Shown here: positions 47,392 through 56,042 of the stretch, piece by piece
How the letters are laid out: the number at the start of each line of letters is the position of its first letter
How positions within the stretch are numbered: the first letter of the stretch is position 1
From: Burkholderiales bacterium
GTDB taxonomy: Bacteria; Pseudomonadota; Gammaproteobacteria; Burkholderiales; Ga0077523
Assembly (NCBI GenBank): GCA_022843925.1
Contig: JALHMS010000001.1
Coordinates: 74,378 to 138,377 of the forward strand
Direction of reading: 5' to 3'
DNA length: 64,000 nucleotides
Translations under genes and position numbers: made by a program
The notes under the pieces: generated by a model
Told to the model about the DNA's origin: nothing
The model's database searches: none
Seen by the model: only the letters and a program-made list of their open reading frames with translations

Positions 47392-49554
47392 ATGACCCCA
47401 GTGAACGATCACCGCTTCGATCAGCTGCTCGCCGGCCGCCAGCACGACCCCCTGGAGATCCTCGGGGTCCATCGTGCCGCGCAGGGCTGGGTGGTGCGGC
47501 ACGTGGATCCGCACGCCGCCACCGTCAGCCTGCGCGACGGCGACCGGTCGGTGCCGCTCACCCAGATCGCCCCCGGCCTGTGGGAGGTCACCGTGCCCGG
47601 CGAGCCCGCGCATCCGCTGCGGCTCCTGGTCGACCACGGGGGGGCGCCGCGCGAGATCGCCAGCCCGTGGGTGTTTGCGCCCGCCATCGGCGACGACGAC
47701 CTGTATCTCTTCAACGCCGGCCAGCTCACCCGCGGCTGGAAGGTGCTGGGCGCCGTCGCGACCCATCGCGGCAGCACCGCCGGCGTCCGCTTCGCGTGCT
47801 GGGCGCCGAACGCGGAGCGCGTGAGCGTCGTGGGCGACTTCAACCGGTGGGACGGCCGCGTCCATCCGATGATCTCCCGTGGGGCGAGTGGCGTCTGGGA
47901 GCTGTTCGTGCCGGGTCTTCCCGCCGAAGCGCTCTACAAGTTCGAGATAAGGCACCGGGCGAGCGGCACCGTGTTCGTGAAGTCCGACCCGTACGGCCGG
48001 GCATTCGAACTGCGCCCCGGCACCGCCGCGCGCGTGCAGACGTCGACGTTCGAATGGACCGACACCCGCTGGATGCAGACCCGCGCCACCCATGACTGGC
48101 TGCACGCACCGCTGAACGCGTACGAGGTGCACCTCGGCTCTTGGAAGCGCCATCCCGACGGCGCGTTCTACACGTATGGCGAGATGGCCGAGCACCTCAT
48201 CCCCTACGCCCTCGAGATGGGCTACACGCACCTCGAGCTGCTCCCGGTGTCGGAGCATCCGCTCGACGAATCGTGGGGTTATCAGACCACCGGCTACTTC
48301 GCCGTGACGAGCCGCTTCGGCACCCCCGACGACTTCCGCGCCTTCGTCGATTCGTGCCACCGCGCGGGGCTGGGCGTGATCCTCGACTGGGTGCCCGGCC
48401 ACTTCCCGCGCGACGCCTGGGCGCTCGCCCGCTTCGACGGGTCGGCACTGTACGAGCACGAGGACCCGCGGATGGGTCTCCACGAGGAATGGGGGACCCA
48501 CGTCTTCAACTACGGCCGCAGGGAGGTCTGCAGCTTCCTGCTGTCGTCGGCGGCGTTCTGGCTGGAGGAGTTCCATCTCGACGGTCTGCGCGTCGATGCC
48601 GTGGCGTCGATGCTCTACCTCGACTACTCGCGGCGCGCCGGCGAGTGGGTCCCGAACCGCTTCGGCGGGCGCGAGAACCTGGAAGCGATCGACTTCCTGC
48701 GCGCGCTGAATGCGATGGTCCACCGCGACTTCCCCGGTGCGCTGACCTTCGCGGAGGAGTCGACGGCGTGGCCGATGGTGTCGCGGCCAGTCTACGTGGG
48801 CGGCCTCGGGTTCTCGATGAAGTGGAACATGGGCTGGATGAACGACTCGCTCGCGTACCTCGCGCACGACCCCATCCATCGCCGCTATCACCACGACAAG
48901 CTCACCTTCGGCCAGATCTACGCGTACAGCGAGAACTTCATGCTGCCGCTGTCGCACGACGAGGTCGTGCACGGGAAACGCTCGCTGCTCGACAAGATGC
49001 CGGGCGACGCGTGGCAGAAGTTCGCGAACCTCAGGCTGCTGCTCGCGTGGCAGGCGTGCACGCCGGGCAAGAAGCTCAATTTCATGGGCAACGAGTTCGG
49101 GCAGGGCCGCGAATGGCGGGTCGGCGGCGAGCTCGACTGGCACCTGCTCGACACGGCATGGCACGGTGGTGCCCAGGCCTGTGCGCGCGACCTCAACCGG
49201 CTGTACCGCGATGTGCCGGCGCTGCACGACCTCGACTTCGATCCCGCCGGCTTCCAGTGGATCGACTGCCACGACGCCGACCACTCGGTGGTGAGCTGGC
49301 TGCGGCGCGATCGCGAGGGCCGTTGCGTCGTGGTGCTGATGAACTTCACGCCGGTCGGCCGCCCCGGTTACCGCATCGGCGTGCCGTCGGGCGGGCACTA
49401 CCGCGAGATCTTCAACAGCGACTCGCGGTTCTACGGCGGCTCGGACCAGGGCAATGGTCATGGCGTCACGGCCGAGCCACATCCTTGGATGAACCAGCCG
49501 TGGTCGGTCGTGCTGACGCTCCCGCCCCTCGCGGCGGTGATCCTGGCGCCGTAG
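47392..49554 (+). CDS. glgB: 1,4-alpha-glucan branching enzyme
   Basis: GH13 enzyme that forms alpha-1,6 branches in glycogen. The product has an N-terminal CBM48-type domain ([25 protein letters not shown]) and a catalytic barrel with [11 protein letters not shown] (nucleophile Asp402), FAEEST (acid Glu455) and SHDEVVHGK (Asp523). A C-terminal beta-sandwich follows. Length 720 residues is the long GlgB form. The gene is 47 bases upstream of glgA. Confidence 0.96.
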
Positions 49555-49601: not shown

Positions 49602-51053
49602 ATGCAGGTCCTCTTCGCCACCTCCGAAGCCGCACCCCTCGTGAAGACCGGCGGGCTCGCCGACGTGAGCGGTGCCCTGCCGGCCGCGCTGCGCCGCGAG
49701 GGCGTCGACGTGCGGATCCTGCTGCCCGGGTACCCCGCGGTGCTCCGGCACCTGGGCGGACAGCCGATCGTGCTGGCCGAGTTCGACGTGCCCATGCTGG
49801 GTCGCGCGGCGCTGCTCGAAGGCGCGATGCCGGACGGCGTGCCGTTGTACGTCATCGCCCGCGACGATCTGTACGCCCGCGACGGCGGCCCGTACCAGCG
49901 CGCGGACGGCGCCGACTGGCCCGACAACGACCGGCGCTTCGGGCTGCTGTCCCGCGTGGCGGCGATGCTGTCGCAGGAATCCTCGCCGATCGCGTGGCGG
50001 CCGGACGTCCTCCACTGCAACGACTGGCAGACCGGGCTCGCGCCGCTCTTCCTGCAGCTGGACGGCACCCGCCATGCGCCGACGCTCTTCACGATCCACA
50101 ACCTCGCCTACCAGGGCATCTTCCCGGCGGACAGCCTTCCGAGGACGGGGCTGCCGTGGGACGTCTTCCGCATGGAGGGCGTCGAGTTCTTCGGGAACAT
50201 CTCGTTCCTGAAGGGCGGCCTGCAGACCGCGGACCGCATCACGACGGTGAGCCCGAACTACGCCCGCGAGATCCAGCACGAACCGCTCGGCTTCGGCCTG
50301 CAGGGCCTGCTCTCGTGGCGGGCGAAGGATCTGACGGGGATCCTGAACGGCATCGATCTCGCCACGTGGGACCCGGGCACGGACCCGCTGATCCCCCGCC
50401 GCTACGGCGTCGACAGCCTGCTGCGCAAGGACGCCAACCGGAGCGCGCTGCGCGAGGTGATGGGTCTCCAGGCGGTCAAGGGGGTTCCGGTCGCCGGGCT
50501 GGTCACGCGCTTCGCGCATCAGAAGGGCCTCGACCTGCTGCTCGCTTGCGTCGAGCAGGCCCTGACCCTGCCGATGCAGTTCGCGATCCTGGGGTCTGGA
50601 GAACCGACGCTGGAACACGCGTTCCGCGACCTGGCGGCGCGCCACCCGGGGCGGATCGGCGTGCGGATCGGCTTCGACGAGGCGCTGTCGCATCTCGTGG
50701 AGGCCGGTGCGGACCTCTTCGTGATGCCGTCCCGCTTCGAACCCTGCGGGCTCAACCAGATGTACAGCCAGCGCTACGGGACGCCGGTCGTGGCGCATGC
50801 CACGGGCGGATTGTCCGACAGCATCGTCGACGCGACCCCCGAGGCCGTGGCCGCCGGGGAGGGCACCGGCTTCCTGTTCCACGAACCGACGCCGCCCGCA
50901 CTGCTCGCGGCGCTGGGCCGGGCAGCGGCGGCCTTCGGCGACCGGCGGGCCTGGAGACGCATCCAGCGATCCGGGATGGCGCGGGATTTCTCGTGGGACG
51001 CCGCGGCCCGCCGGTATGCCTCCCTCTATCGCGCGGTGACGGGCACCCCCTGA
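49602..51053 (+). CDS. glgA: Glycogen synthase
   Basis: GT5 enzyme that extends alpha-1,4-glucan from ADP-glucose. It begins MQVLFATSEAAPLVKTGGLADV with the ADP-glucose-binding KTGGL (Lys15), contains HCNDWQTGLAPL and ends with the GT-B motif PSRFEPCGLNQMYSQRYG holding the catalytic Glu. Length from ATG 49602 is 483 residues, near the E. coli enzyme; GTG 49563 would add 13 residues. The long frame beginning in glgB is not real. Confidence 0.95.
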   Translation: MQVLFATSEAAPLVKTGGLADVSGALPAALRREGVDVRILLPGYPAVLRHLGGQPIVLAEFDVPMLGRAALLEGAMPDGVPLYVIARDDLYARDGGPYQRADGADWPDNDRRFGLLSRVAAMLSQESSPIAWRPDVLHCNDWQTGLAPLFLQLDGTRHAPTLFTIHNLAYQGIFPADSLPRTGLPWDVFRMEGVEFFGNISFLKGGLQTADRITTVSPNYAREIQHEPLGFGLQGLLSWRAKDLTGILNGIDLATWDPGTDPLIPRRYGVDSLLRKDANRSALREVMGLQAVKGVPVAGLVTRFAHQKGLDLLLACVEQALTLPMQFAILGSGEPTLEHAFRDLAARHPGRIGVRIGFDEALSHLVEAGADLFVMPSRFEPCGLNQMYSQRYGTPVVAHATGGLSDSIVDATPEAVAAGEGTGFLFHEPTPPALLAALGRAAAAFGDRRAWRRIQRSGMARDFSWDAAARRYASLYRAVTGTP

Positions 51054-51126
51054 GGGTGGCAGAATCGAGGTCTACTCAGGAGTCCCGGTCGCGCGGCCGG
51101 GGCGTCCGCACAACGGGAGGGGTGAA

Positions 51127-52452
51127 ATGATCGGTGACAAGATCGAAGTGAACATCGCGGGCGGGCTCGACATTCCCCTGCCGCGCATGATCCACGTCCG
51201 CCAGAAGTTCGAGACGCCCCGCGTCACGGACATCGCCGGCACCGTCGCGACCCAGTTCCAGCGTGCGGAAGTGCGCGCCAAGGTGAAGCCCGGCATGACC
51301 ATCGCCGTGGGTTGCGGCAGCCGCGGCATCGCCAACATCGCGGCGTGCGTGAAGCAGGTCATCGCCGAACTGAAGGCGCTGGGTGCGAAGCCCTTCATCT
51401 TCCCGGCCATGGGCAGCCACGGCGGCGCGACGGCGGAAGGCCAGCGCGAAGTGCTCGAGGGCTACGGCATCACCGAGGAGACGATGGGCTGCCCGGTGCA
51501 CTCGCAGATGGACGTCGTCGAACTCGGCAAGCTGCCCTCCGGCATGCCGATCTACATGGACAAGCTGGCCGCCGCCGCCGATGGCGTCGTGGTGGTCTGC
51601 CGCGTGAAGCCGCACACCAATTTCCGCGCCCCGATCGAGTCCGGCATCGTGAAGATGCTGACCATCGGCATGGGCAAGATCGTCGGTGCGACCGAACTGC
51701 ACACCGAGGGCATGGACGCCTTCGGCACGCTGCTCCCGGCCGCCGCACGCCTCATCATCGAGCAGAAGAACATCCTGATGGGTGTGGCGATGGTCGAGAA
51801 CGCTGCCGACGAGACGGCCCTCATCGAGGCCGTGCCCACCGAGCAGATCTTCACCCGCGAGCCAGAGCTGCAGGCGAAGGCCAAGGCGATGATGGCGCGG
51901 TTGCAGTTCGACGAGATCGACGTGCTGGTCGTCGAGCGCATCGGCAAGAACATCTCCGGTTCGGGGATGGACCCGAACATCACGGGTCGCAACTGCCGCC
52001 ACACCGAGTGGAACATGTTGCCGTTCGTGAAGAAGATCGCCGTGCTGGGCCTCACGCCCGAGACGCACGGCAACGCGACGGGCATCGGCGGTGCGGACGT
52101 CATCACGATGCGGCTCTACAAGGACCTCGACATCGCCAAGACGTACGCGAACGTGATCACCTCCACTTACCTCGACGGCGCGGCGATCCCGATCATCATG
52201 AACACCGACGAGGACGCCATCCGCCTCGCCGTGAAGACCGTGGTGCGCGTGAAGCCGCAGGACACCAAGATCGTCCGCATCGCGAACACGCTGGAAGTGC
52301 TCGACATCCACGTGTCCGAAGGGATGCTGCCGTACATCAAGGCGAACCCCTCCATGTTCGAGATCGTCGGCGAGCCCGCCCCCTTCAAGTTCGATGCGAA
52401 GGGCACGATCTACCCGATGCTCGGCCAGCACCACGACCACGCGCACGCGTAG
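51127..52452 (+). CDS. LarA-family nickel-pincer enzyme (lactate racemase domain), substrate unknown
   Basis: 441-residue cytoplasmic protein of the LarA/DUF2088 superfamily. The residues that hold the nickel-pincer nucleotide in Lactiplantibacillus LarA (His108, His174, Lys184, His200) can be placed: His98 in MGSHGG, His163 in KPHTNF, Lys176 in GIVKML and His192 in ATELH. The Lys-to-His spacing of 16 is identical. Otherwise the sequence is diverged (GCGSRG instead of the DHTR motif), so lactate may not be the substrate. A very strong Shine-Dalgarno (GGGAGGGG) precedes ATG 51127. larC, larE and larB follow, which supports cofactor dependence. A racemase or epimerase of another 2-hydroxyacid is the best guess. 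Confidence 0.85.
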   Translation: MIGDKIEVNIAGGLDIPLPRMIHVRQKFETPRVTDIAGTVATQFQRAEVRAKVKPGMTIAVGCGSRGIANIAACVKQVIAELKALGAKPFIFPAMGSHGGATAEGQREVLEGYGITEETMGCPVHSQMDVVELGKLPSGMPIYMDKLAAAADGVVVVCRVKPHTNFRAPIESGIVKMLTIGMGKIVGATELHTEGMDAFGTLLPAAARLIIEQKNILMGVAMVENAADETALIEAVPTEQIFTREPELQAKAKAMMARLQFDEIDVLVVERIGKNISGSGMDPNITGRNCRHTEWNMLPFVKKIAVLGLTPETHGNATGIGGADVITMRLYKDLDIAKTYANVITSTYLDGAAIPIIMNTDEDAIRLAVKTVVRVKPQDTKIVRIANTLEVLDIHVSEGMLPYIKANPSMFEIVGEPAPFKFDAKGTIYPMLGQHHDHAHA

Positions 52453-52497
52453 GTTGCAGGCCAGGTCACGGGGCGCAGGTCACGGGGCACAGGTCCC

Positions 52498-53745
52498 ATG
52501 CGGATCCACCTCGATGCCGTCGGCGGCATCGCCGGCGACATGTTCATCGCGGCGGTCACCGATGCGTTCCCGCACCTGCGTGAAGGCATGCTGGCGGCCG
52601 TGCGCGCCGCCGGCGTCCCCGACCGCATCGACTGCCGGTTCGAACCCCATCGCGACCACGCACTGACCGGCAGCCGCTTCATCGTCAACATCCCGGTGGA
52701 TCCTGCGCCCCACGGCATACGCCGGCAGCCTCGGCCCGAACACACCCATCGCAACTTCGCCGACCTTCGGGGGCATCTGCTCGGGTCGGGGCTGTCGTCC
52801 TCGGTCAAGACGCACGTGGTCGGCATCTTCACGGTACTCGCCACCGCCGAGGGCAAGGTCCACGGCGTGTCACCCGACGACGTGTCGTTCCACGAACTGG
52901 GCGAGTGGGACTCGATCGCCGACATCGTCGGCGCCGCGTTTCTGATCGACGCGCTCGGCGCCGACGGCTGGACGGTCGGGACGCTACCGCTGGGCGCCGG
53001 ATTCGTGCAGACAGCCCACGGCCGGCTGCCGGTGCCGGTACCCGCCACGGCGGAGATCCTCCAGGGGTACGCCTTCGCCGACGACGGTCTGCTCGGCGAG
53101 CGCATCACGCCCACCGGTGCGGCGATCCTCCGACACCTCGGCGCGCGCCAATCCACCGGCGACCGCCGGCCGCGCGTGCTGCGTCAGATCGGCTACGGCT
53201 TCGGCACCCGCGTCTTCCCGAATCTCTCGAACGTGCTGCGCGTCTGCGCGTTCGAACCCGCCGAACTGGGTGACGACGGCGACGACGGTGAAGGCGGCGA
53301 GGTCGCCGTTCTCGCGTTCGAGGTGGATGACCAGACCCCGGAGGACCTCGCGATCGGCCTCGACAGGATCCGTGCCTTCCCCGGCGTGCTCGACGTGCTG
53401 CAGACGCCGGCCTTCGGCAAGAAGGGGCGGCTCACCGCCCACATCCAGGTGCTCGCGGAACCGGGGGCGACGGAAGGCGTGATCGACGCGTGCTTCCTCG
53501 AAACGACGACCATCGGATTGCGTCATGGCCTGGTGCGGCGCCGTCGGCTGCCGCGCGATCTGCGCGTGGTCCAGGTGGGCAATCACGCCATCCGTGTGAA
53601 GGTCGCCCGGCGGCCCGACGCGCGCACGGCCAAGGCCGAGGCCGACGACATGCAACCCCTTGCCGGCAGCGACACCCGCAGCCGGCTGCGACGCGCGGCG
53701 GAAGACGCCGGCCTCGCGAACCAGGACGAGGAACCCTCCGCTTGA
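52498..53745 (+). CDS. larC: Nickel insertion protein for pincer nucleotide cofactor (LarC)
   Basis: CTP-dependent cyclometallase that installs nickel in the pyridinium dithiocarboxylate mononucleotide. The N terminus HLDAVGGIAGDMFIAAVTDAF is the family signature; VSFHELGEWDSIADIVGAA and LPLGAGFVQTAHGRLPVPVPAT follow, then the C-terminal DUF111 part with TTIGLRHGLVRRRRLPRD. Length is 415 residues in one continuous frame, unlike the Lactiplantibacillus gene that needs a programmed frameshift. The stop overlaps the larE start (TTGA). Confidence 0.93.
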   Translation: MRIHLDAVGGIAGDMFIAAVTDAFPHLREGMLAAVRAAGVPDRIDCRFEPHRDHALTGSRFIVNIPVDPAPHGIRRQPRPEHTHRNFADLRGHLLGSGLSSSVKTHVVGIFTVLATAEGKVHGVSPDDVSFHELGEWDSIADIVGAAFLIDALGADGWTVGTLPLGAGFVQTAHGRLPVPVPATAEILQGYAFADDGLLGERITPTGAAILRHLGARQSTGDRRPRVLRQIGYGFGTRVFPNLSNVLRVCAFEPAELGDDGDDGEGGEVAVLAFEVDDQTPEDLAIGLDRIRAFPGVLDVLQTPAFGKKGRLTAHIQVLAEPGATEGVIDACFLETTTIGLRHGLVRRRRLPRDLRVVQVGNHAIRVKVARRPDARTAKAEADDMQPLAGSDTRSRLRRAAEDAGLANQDEEPSA

Positions 53746-54578
53746 ATGCCGTCGCCGCCCCCCTCGAACGCCTCGAGACCGTTCTCTCCACTCTGCCTGC
53801 CATCGCCTGCGCGGTGAGTGGCGGCGTCGACAGCCTCACGCTCGCCACCTTCGCTCACCGGCGCTTCGCGGGCCGGGTCACGATGTTCCACGCCGTCTCG
53901 CCGGCGGTGCCCGACGAAGCCACGCGGCGCACGCAGGCGCTGGCGGAAAGCGAGGGCTGGTCGCTCACGATCATCGACGCCGGCGAGTTCGCCGTGGCCC
54001 AGTACCGCGCCAACCCGGTGAACCGTTGCTACTTCTGCAAGACGAGCCTGTACGGCGCGATCCGTCCGGCCACCACGGCGCAGATCGTCTCCGGCACCAA
54101 CCTCGACGACCTCGGCGAGTACCGTCCCGGGCTCGACGCCGCGGCGGAACATTCGGTGCGGCATCCGTTCGTCGAGGCTGCGATCGACAAGACCACGGTC
54201 CGCGCGCTGGCCCGCGAGTTGGGCCTGGGCGACATCGCCGAGCTGCCGTCCGCGCCATGCCTGTCGAGCCGCATCGAGACCGGCATCGGGATCGACCCGG
54301 GGATGCTCGCTGCCGTGCACGCGTCCGAACTGCTTGTGAGGGACCGCCTGAATCCCTCGACCGTGCGTTGCCGGGTGCGGGCCACCGGAGCCGTGATCGA
54401 ATTGGACTCCGGGAGCCTAGCTGCGCTCGACGATGCCCGACGGTCGGCCCTTACCGACGAGATCGGCGGACTCTTCTCCGCCCGCGGCTTTGCGCTCGCG
54501 GTCGACTTCGCGCCGTATCGCACCGGCAGCGCCTTCCTGATCCACCAGCTCGGCACGCCCGCGTCGCGTCCGGCCTGA
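53742..54578 (+). CDS. larE: Pyridinium dithiocarboxylate synthesis sulfur transferase (LarE)
   Basis: PP-loop enzyme that adenylylates the pincer precursor and inserts sulfur. The ATP loop is SGGVDS (residues 26-31). Three cysteines, C96-x-x-C99 (NRCYFCK) and C173 (SAPCLSSR), are present; C173 corresponds to the donor Cys176 of the sacrificial enzyme, while a three-cysteine set is known from cluster-dependent homologues. The TTG start at 53742 is chosen because it overlaps the larC stop by four bases and gives 278 residues, the family length. An ATG at 53746 is out of frame. Confidence 0.92.
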   Translation: MNAVAAPLERLETVLSTLPAIACAVSGGVDSLTLATFAHRRFAGRVTMFHAVSPAVPDEATRRTQALAESEGWSLTIIDAGEFAVAQYRANPVNRCYFCKTSLYGAIRPATTAQIVSGTNLDDLGEYRPGLDAAAEHSVRHPFVEAAIDKTTVRALARELGLGDIAELPSAPCLSSRIETGIGIDPGMLAAVHASELLVRDRLNPSTVRCRVRATGAVIELDSGSLAALDDARRSALTDEIGGLFSARGFALAVDFAPYRTGSAFLIHQLGTPASRPA

Positions 54579-54594
54579 CGAGAAGTTTGCACCT

Positions 54595-55257
54595 ATGAAC
54601 CCGTCCCAAGACATCCGGCTGGATTTCGATCGCCGCAACCGCATGGGTCTCGAGGAAGCGATCCTCGCCGGCTCGAAGAGCGTCGCCCACCTGACGGCCA
54701 TCCTCGACCAGGCCGCCGAGCGCAAGGCCCGCTTCCTGTTCACCCGCCTCGATCAGGCCCAGTTCGATGCACTCCCCGAGGCCCATCGCACGCGGCTCGA
54801 CTACGACCCGCTGTCCCGCACGGCGTGGTTCGGGGCGCCCGAGCCCCTGCGGGTGCAGATCCGCGTCGGCGTCGTCGCTGCGGGCACCTCGGACATCTCG
54901 GTGGTCCGGGAAGTCACGCGGACGCTGGCCTGGTACGGCGAACCCGCGCTGGAGATCACGGATGTCGGCGTGGCAGGCCTCTGGCGCCTGATGGAGCGCG
55001 TCGAGGAGCTGCAGCGGTTGCCGGTCGTCGTCGCGGTCGCCGGGATGGATGCCGCACTGCCGACCGTCGTGGGCGGACTCCTGCCGGGCATCGTGATCGG
55101 CGTTCCGACCTCGGTGGGCTACGGCGTCGCGGCGGGCGGGCATTCGGCCCTGCACTCCATGCTGTCGAGTTGCGCGGCCGGCCTCGTCGTCACGAACATC
55201 GACAACGGCTTCGGCGCGGCCTGCGCGGCGCTGCGGGTGCTGCGGTCGGCGCGGTAG
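54595..55257 (+). CDS. larB: Pyridinium-3,5-biscarboxylate mononucleotide synthase (LarB)
   Basis: PurE-like carboxylase/hydrolase that starts pincer cofactor synthesis from nicotinate adenine dinucleotide. The N-terminal IRLDFDRRNRMGLEEAILAGSKS is typical of LarB. The C-terminal PurE domain contains VVAAGTSDISVVREV, the catalytic-site segment VAGMDAALPTVVGGL and VPTSVGYG...ALHSMLSSCA and VTNIDNGFGA. Length is 220 residues. It follows larE by 16 bases and ends the lar operon. Confidence 0.94.
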   Translation: MNPSQDIRLDFDRRNRMGLEEAILAGSKSVAHLTAILDQAAERKARFLFTRLDQAQFDALPEAHRTRLDYDPLSRTAWFGAPEPLRVQIRVGVVAAGTSDISVVREVTRTLAWYGEPALEITDVGVAGLWRLMERVEELQRLPVVVAVAGMDAALPTVVGGLLPGIVIGVPTSVGYGVAAGGHSALHSMLSSCAAGLVVTNIDNGFGAACAALRVLRSAR

Positions 55258-55418
55258 TTTGCTCGGGGGTCCACCCGCAGATGGCCGACCACTCGCACAT
55301 GCACCCGGTGTCGGAAAGGTTGTCGTTTGGGGTCGCGAGACGCGGCAAGCCGCTGATTCCATTCGGTGGCCGATCGCTTGCTCCGGGGCGCGTTCCAGAT
55401 ATGCCCACTGAGGTCTTC

Positions 55419-56042
55419 ATGAAGCGCCAGCTCATTCCCTTCGTCACCGCCCTGCTCCTCTCCGTCGGCGGAGCCCACGCCGACAACCTGTTCGAGAACG
55501 GCAGCTTCGAGTCTCCCGGCGGCGCGGGCAATTTCATCCTGACTGGCGGCAGCACATTCGTGACCGGATGGACCACCGTGCTCACCGGTGTCGAGTACTT
55601 CAACGCCTCGGGCTTCGGCGGCGCCGCCGACGGCGTGATGGTCGTGGACCTGGCGAACTACGTGTACTCCGCCGGTGGCATCGAGCAGACGATCAGCACA
55701 GTGATCGGGACGACCTATGAACTCACTTTCTCGGCCGGCAACTATCTCGGCTCGGGGCGCACCGGCACCGGCGTGGTGAAGGTCACCATCGACGGCGTGA
55801 CGCAGGCATTCGACACTGCCGTCGCGACCACCAGCACCACTGTCTGGAAGGAAGTGTCGTTCGAGTTCGTAGCGACACAGTCCGAGACCACGGTCCGGTT
55901 CTGGAACGACCAGAACGCCAACCAGTACTTTGCGTTCATCGACGGTGTCGGCATGACGCCCGCAGTGCCGGAACCGCAGACCTGGGCGCTGCTCGCCGGA
56001 GGCCTCGGGCTGGTGGGCTTGGCGGGCCGTCGGCGCGCCTGA
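55419..56042 (+). CDS. PEP-CTERM sorting-domain protein, DUF642-like beta-sandwich
   Basis: Secreted 207-residue protein. ATG 55419 follows GAGG; a signal peptide ends near GAHA. The mature part begins DNLFENGSFESPGG and continues as a beta-rich domain resembling DUF642/choice-of-anchor carbohydrate-binding folds (VVDLANYVYSAGGIEQTIST). The C terminus VPEPQTWALLAGGLGLVGLA plus RRR is a PEP-CTERM tag. Its function is unknown; related proteins go to the cell surface or exopolysaccharide matrix. A clear terminator follows. Confidence 0.87.
   Translation: MKRQLIPFVTALLLSVGGAHADNLFENGSFESPGGAGNFILTGGSTFVTGWTTVLTGVEYFNASGFGGAADGVMVVDLANYVYSAGGIEQTISTVIGTTYELTFSAGNYLGSGRTGTGVVKVTIDGVTQAFDTAVATTSTTVWKEVSFEFVATQSETTVRFWNDQNANQYFAFIDGVGMTPAVPEPQTWALLAGGLGLVGLAGRRRA

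Follow-up and report, generated by a model that had tools for sequence, protein, structure and literature searches.

Relation to described LarA-type enzymes

Described relatives of lactate racemase (LarA) that work with the nickel-pincer nucleotide (NPN) cofactor include the SAR of Isosphaera pallida (LarAH2; PDB 9eia, 9eid), the D-gluconate 2-epimerase GntE2 of Thermotoga maritima (LarAH20; PDB 4nar) and the group 17 LarAHs (PDB 9q3j, 9q3k), which have a single catalytic histidine and an Asn for the second His (PMC12611868, available part). Here we describe larAH, a gene that lies with larC, larE and larB at positions 51127 to 55257 of a 64,000-nucleotide stretch of a Burkholderiales genome (assembly GCA_022843925.1, contig JALHMS010000001.1), the whole of which is called the window. 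We consider it fairly probable that larAH encodes an NPN-dependent sugar-acid 2-epimerase, the epimer feeding an L-arabinonate-type dehydratase and the cofactor coming from larB, larE and larC.

The larAH gene (51127 to 52452, plus strand) encodes 441 amino acids, of which residues 18-405 match NF052515 (nickel pincer cofactor-dependent isomerase, group 22) with 539 bits at a cut-off of 400. The Lar_N model (PF09861) is matched with 31.8 bits (gathering cut-off 23.3). By these sequence models, the protein is a member of an already named branch of the LarA superfamily, and the preliminary description, which treated it as an individually diverged LarA, has to be corrected on this point. Its number is presumably taken from the 25-group scheme in Desguin et al. 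2020 (PMC7583248), although the phrase "group 22" was not found in the main text of that paper. Several named groups of NPN enzymes are without an activity, and in the literature searched group 22 is among them: searches on its characterisation and on LarA homologues in connection with sugar acids, threonate or arabinonate gave no reported group-22 activity.

Window larAH is ~16% identical to the I. pallida SAR, from which it differs by the lack of Asp72, by three extra residues separating the second His from the Lys, by the sequence behind the second His (HTNF vs HLM) and by the C-domain motif GKNISGSGMDPN. GntE2 belongs to another group, carries Glu-Ser behind the second His (PMC7583248, in the part consulted) and was not recovered by a sequence search starting from group 22. 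Unlike group 17, group 22 retains both histidines in 42 of 42 aligned proteins. Since a sequence search of solved structures with window larAH or a 42-sequence profile gave no LarA entry and chance-level matches only, the kinship to LarA rests on the Pfam and NCBIfam models, on hhalign and on fold comparison. In the latter, the N-domain matches LarA structures. An AlphaFold model calculated from eight close sequences has a mean predicted local distance difference test score (pLDDT) of 58.8, with values <50 at residues 262-391 and at the loops carrying H98, H163 and H192.

Conserved residues

The residues H98, H163, K176 and H192, proposed earlier as cofactor ligands and covalent lysine, are found at these positions and are invariant across the 42 group-22 proteins. 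Together with R66 they align in the profile alignment with Arg75, His108, His174, Lys184 and His200 of LarA (R66 with Arg75, the others in order). The K176-H192 spacing of 16, as given earlier, equals the K183-H199 spacing of a SAR-type LarA encoded on contig C3 of the same genome. The segment GCGSRG was previously read as a replacement of the substrate segment, which does not hold: its R66 corresponds to the Arg (Arg75) of the LarA D-x-T-R motif and is kept in 42/42 sequences, and only Asp72 is missing. The Asp72 position is C63 in window larAH and is occupied by C (19), V (18), A (4) or G (1) among the 42 proteins.

The protein also passes the cut-off of Pfam DUF362 (26.5 bits, cut-off 24), several relatives are annotated as DUF362, and together with the missing Asp72 this could indicate a DUF362-like protein without nickel or NPN binding that simply accompanies larCEB. 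Two genomes with group 22 and no LarC match (G633 and G757) would fit such a protein. Against this stand the invariance of the five NPN residues, the adjacency of larC, larE and larB in the clade to which larAH belongs and on the Paenibacillus plasmid, that of larB, larC and a larE-like gene on the Loktanella plasmid, the larC gene directly behind the group-22 gene in Sulfitobacter, and the co-occurrence of group 22 with LarC described below, so that we regard a role outside NPN chemistry as very doubtful.

Cofactor pathway genes

The preliminary description listed a complete NPN pathway in one operon with a LarA-superfamily protein, and all four genes score above the curated NCBIfam cut-offs. 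The larC gene (52498 to 53745, plus strand, 415 amino acids) carries the LarC1 and LarC2 domains in a single reading frame (TIGR00299, 177 bits, cut-off 90; NF052512, 101 bits, cut-off 50) and encodes a predicted nickel insertion protein. It is followed on the same strand by larE (53742 to 54578, TTG start at 53742, 278 amino acids; TIGR00268, 240 bits, cut-off 150), a predicted sulfur transferase, and by larB (54595 to 55257, 220 amino acids), assigned by NF033503 (244 bits, cut-off 175) as the nicotinic acid adenine dinucleotide (NaAD) carboxylase/hydrolase of the pathway. The genes from larAH to larB form one tight run, a predicted operon, separated by 45 bases, an overlap of 4 bases and 16 bases, in agreement with the spacing given earlier. 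LarE contains SGGVDS plus a CXXC-C set (C96, C99, C173), a pattern tied to a [4Fe-4S] cluster and repeated turnover with no sacrificed cysteine (PMC9283937, part seen). Window LarE is thus predicted to be of the [4Fe-4S] type, like LarE of T. maritima.

Window larC is the single PF01969 match in its genome, which encodes three Lar_N proteins: window larAH, a group-22 paralogue on contig C40 that is 60% identical to it, and the SAR-type homologue on contig C3 (L001:1483-2769), which has an HFM loop and a YYQTVK motif and matches the I. pallida enzyme of 9eia with 361 bits. Because there is only this one larC match, the window operon is likely the cofactor source for all three, and larCEB probably also serves the SAR-type homologue.

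The SAR-type protein also bears on the question whether larAH is a racemase of lactate or another short-chain 2-hydroxy acid. The NPN enzyme activities reported in the accessible parts of PMC7583248 and PMC11770544 are on 2-hydroxy acids, several of the enzymes being promiscuous, which speaks for such an activity. However, the nickel-dependent lactate racemase model NF033504 gives only 16.2 bits with larAH at a cut-off of 460, the genome has the separate SAR-type homologue, and a reading of the open reading frames beside larAH revealed no lactate gene, as already remarked before. Racemisation of lactate or another short-chain 2-hydroxy acid is therefore most improbable, and identity as lactate racemase was rejected on the model scores and the separate homologue; a substrate other than lactate is likely, as suggested earlier.

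In the class of genome G299, LarC is present in 9 of the 11 group-22 genomes as compared to 21 of 374 others (Fisher p 1.5e-9, with genomes that are not independent). Group 22 is the sole Lar_N match in G299 itself, where larC lies ~8.5 kb away. The genes larC, larE and larB follow larAH in the window's clade and likewise follow the group-22 gene on a Paenibacillus plasmid; a Loktanella plasmid has larB, larC and a larE-like gene behind it, and a Sulfitobacter plasmid has larC directly behind and larB about 12 kb off.

Distribution and gene context

Group 22 occurs in 15 of the 41 genomes searched (the own genome, genus mates and others of the order), each with two or more matches; G398 has three. 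The tree separates clade A, the window type (support 100/97), from clade B (92/86), of which the long-branched L029 is the least sure member. Since both clades are found in G420, G422 and G426, which belong to other families, the duplication predates the genus. Relative to the NF052515 family at large, window larAH stands out by its membership of clade A, which is mostly located within a larCEB operon with an L-arabinonate dehydratase nearby. Group 22 is rare: it was present in 3 of 398 genomes sampled from the phylum (own genome included) and, for the class of G299, in 11 of 385. Matches were also found in 111 plasmid records, 47 of them from Pseudosulfitobacter; a scan of viral contigs gave no relative of larAH.

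The gene order of clade A in the genus is araD - HPF - GH57 - GH57 - glgC, glgB - glgA - larAH - larC - larE - larB, in which the labels HPF, GH57 and the glg names, like TctC, are our assignments from sequence. Upstream contig of at least about 9-10 kb is available at 15 clade-A loci, and at 10 of them an L-arabinonate dehydratase is linked to larAH. The two genes are separated by 9.5-10.1 kb in G402, G404, G405, G406, G407 and G426 (the last without an HPF match), 6.2 kb in L008, and 202-215 bases, with divergent orientation, in L009, L010 and G422, which are close relatives of one another. The other five loci are those of the own genome (G000, 60 kb apart), G399, G400, G403 (only 10 kb seen) and G420. 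Outside this count are G398, G408, L007 and L011, with too little contig, and G401, with no clear clade-A copy. The block of dehydratase, HPF and GH57 is next to the glycogen-larAH block in five genus mates, whereas in the own genome (L132:8904-13804) it is 60 kb away from larAH.

A function of larAH in glycogen metabolism was considered because glgA closely precedes it in the genus: the gap between the two is about 73-192 bases in the window and in L046, L048, L052, L063, L006 and L008 (gaps estimated from alignment ends), with no terminator-like site between the two genes in the window. Yet no glg match was found in the stretch covered at L009, L010 and L059, where the dehydratase is 202-215 bases away, and glycogen genes are absent beside the second paralogue (L044) and at 17 annotated plasmid places. 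We also know of no NPN chemistry on glycogen precursors, which counts against this function. It appears highly improbable, and the link was set aside on the loci that have the dehydratase adjacent to larAH and no glycogen gene. The glycogen neighbours reported in the preliminary description are present, including glgA on the same strand, which it had missed, but they look like weak guides to function in view of the dehydratase kept in 10/15 loci and the sugar-acid genes in 14/16 plasmid genera; they look like bystanders between two linked partners.

Near clade-B genes we found sugar-acid dehydratase superfamily (MR/MLE) enzymes (L055 and L060 by scanning, L057 by clustering), an RraA-like family, scanned through its members in L008 and L062, and a protein resembling a transporter, labelled without a family scan. 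An MR/MLE enzyme is also near larAH in clade-A locus L058; all MR/MLE matches are below equivalog cut-offs. The clade-B gene of the own genome (contig C40, L044:12043-13362) is followed by a histidine-kinase-like gene, a regulator-like gene (unscanned) and a TRAP transporter large permease. Contig C40 also carries an IlvD/Edd dehydratase, at a distance of about 21 kb from this clade-B gene.

On plasmids, 18 places in 17 genera were viewed, of which Niallia is unannotated, leaving 16 annotated genera. A sugar-acid gene lies within 6 kb of the group-22 gene in 14 of these 16, or 12 of 16 if DUF4147 is left out. Genes counted were UxaC, UxaA, IlvD/Edd dehydratase, MR/MLE, mannonate dehydratase, KDPG aldolase with KDGal kinase, four-carbon acid sugar kinase with PdxA, and DUF4147. 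As controls, six 50-kb regions on six of these plasmids were taken; only that of Natronococcus has a listed gene (L-rhamnonate dehydratase), along with two L-rhamnono-lactonases, so that 5% of control positions are near a listed gene, or 8% with the lactonases counted. A binomial comparison of plasmids and controls should not be taken literally because the loci are related and the gene list is post hoc. The Rubrobacter control region has a classical larA at its edge.

Proposed function

The analysis establishes the family of larAH, its residues, the operon arrangement, the single larC match, the fold of the N-domain and the linkage to dehydratases in relatives. From these observations we infer that the protein is loaded with the cofactor, which reaction it performs, on what class of substrate and, most of all, on which sugar acid exactly. 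The linkage suggests that the most likely substrate is an aldonate of the L-arabinonate / D-fuconate / D-galactonate stereo-series or one of the C2 epimers, for example L-ribonate or D-talonate. LarB, LarE and LarC would make the NPN cofactor from NaAD and probably supply all three LarA homologues of the cell with it. The cofactor would be attached covalently to K176, with H192 as the fourth nickel ligand; the substrate carboxylate would be held by R66 together with H98 and H163, and H98 and H163 would alternate as acid and base, the hydride passing to the cofactor and then back to the opposite face. The epimer produced would go to the IlvD/Edd-type L-arabinonate dehydratase encoded at C1:186915-188621 of the own genome. 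If this is true, it would suggest a reason for bacteria to maintain NPN biosynthesis next to sugar-acid dehydratases, and the annotation 'lactate racemase domain-containing protein' need not mean lactate here. The gene contexts also point to a specific and cheap test of group-22 activity.

A smaller polyhydroxy acid, glycerate or threonate/erythronate, would be compatible with the same cofactor chemistry. In Rubrobacter, a four-carbon acid sugar kinase and pdxA are directly upstream of the group-22 gene, and PdxA-like proteins with such kinases act on threonate or erythronate. In Haloarcula and Halomicrobium (plasmid loci L089 and L094) the group-22 gene is close behind DUF4147, which we take to be a glycerate kinase family, at 0.1-1.1 kb, with one gene between in Halomicrobium; in Haloarcula it is flanked by LUD genes on its opposite side. 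The group-22 protein of these two plasmids is possibly a glycerate racemase, and other group-22 branches may favour glycerate or tetronates. For window larAH a smaller substrate is nevertheless unlikely: the Rubrobacter, Haloarcula and Halomicrobium relatives are only about 38-44% identical, and its clade is linked with a C5/C6 dehydratase, of which a characterised homologue is inactive on L-threonate (PMC11316719, available part).

Several points weigh against epimerisation of a sugar acid by larAH. Asp72 of LarA, counted as catalytic in the part of PMC7583248 consulted, is by alignment absent from window larAH and all 42 group-22 proteins, and no group-22 residue could be placed as the equivalent of Lys298; K274 is invariant in the group, the profile alignment with LarA spanning the N-domain only. 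The predicted C-terminal domain, which would read the substrate side chain, is poorly modelled. The available sequence around larAH in G399, G400, G403 and G420 did not reveal the dehydratase, and that of the own genome is 60 kb away. In the class of G299, two of the 11 genomes with group 22, G633 and G757, are without a LarC match. As to the plasmids, the sugar-acid gene list was fixed after the contexts had been viewed, no listed gene is near group 22 in Halocatena and Salinigranum (2 of 16 genera), and Haloarcula and Halomicrobium were counted on DUF4147 alone, which points to glycerate and not to an aldonate.

More tentatively, group 22 as a whole, from haloarchaea to Bacillota, could be a broad NPN family that epimerises sugar acids for dehydratases of unrelated folds (IlvD/Edd, UxaA, enolase-type MR/MLE) or for C3-C4 acid kinases, dispensing with Asp72 and using a different substrate-reading C-domain. 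If so, it would open the catabolism of C2-epimeric aldonates.

Surroundings of the operon

A strong purine-rich ribosome-binding site, cgggaggggtgaa, is read directly before larAH (51114 to 51126, plus strand). Upstream on the same strand are glgB (47392 to 49554), named from sequence without a family-model scan, and glgA (49602 to 51053), which ends 73 bases before larAH. A simple consensus scan of 50900 to 55700 gave no sigma-70-like promoter and no terminator-like site, where 0.3 and 1.5 are expected by chance; this neither proves nor disproves a transcript common to glgBA and the larAH operon, and such sharing is possible. The larB gene seems to be the last of the operon, and directly 3' of it a secreted-looking protein whose end is PEP-CTERM-like, as read from its translation, is encoded on the plus strand at about 55420-56042.
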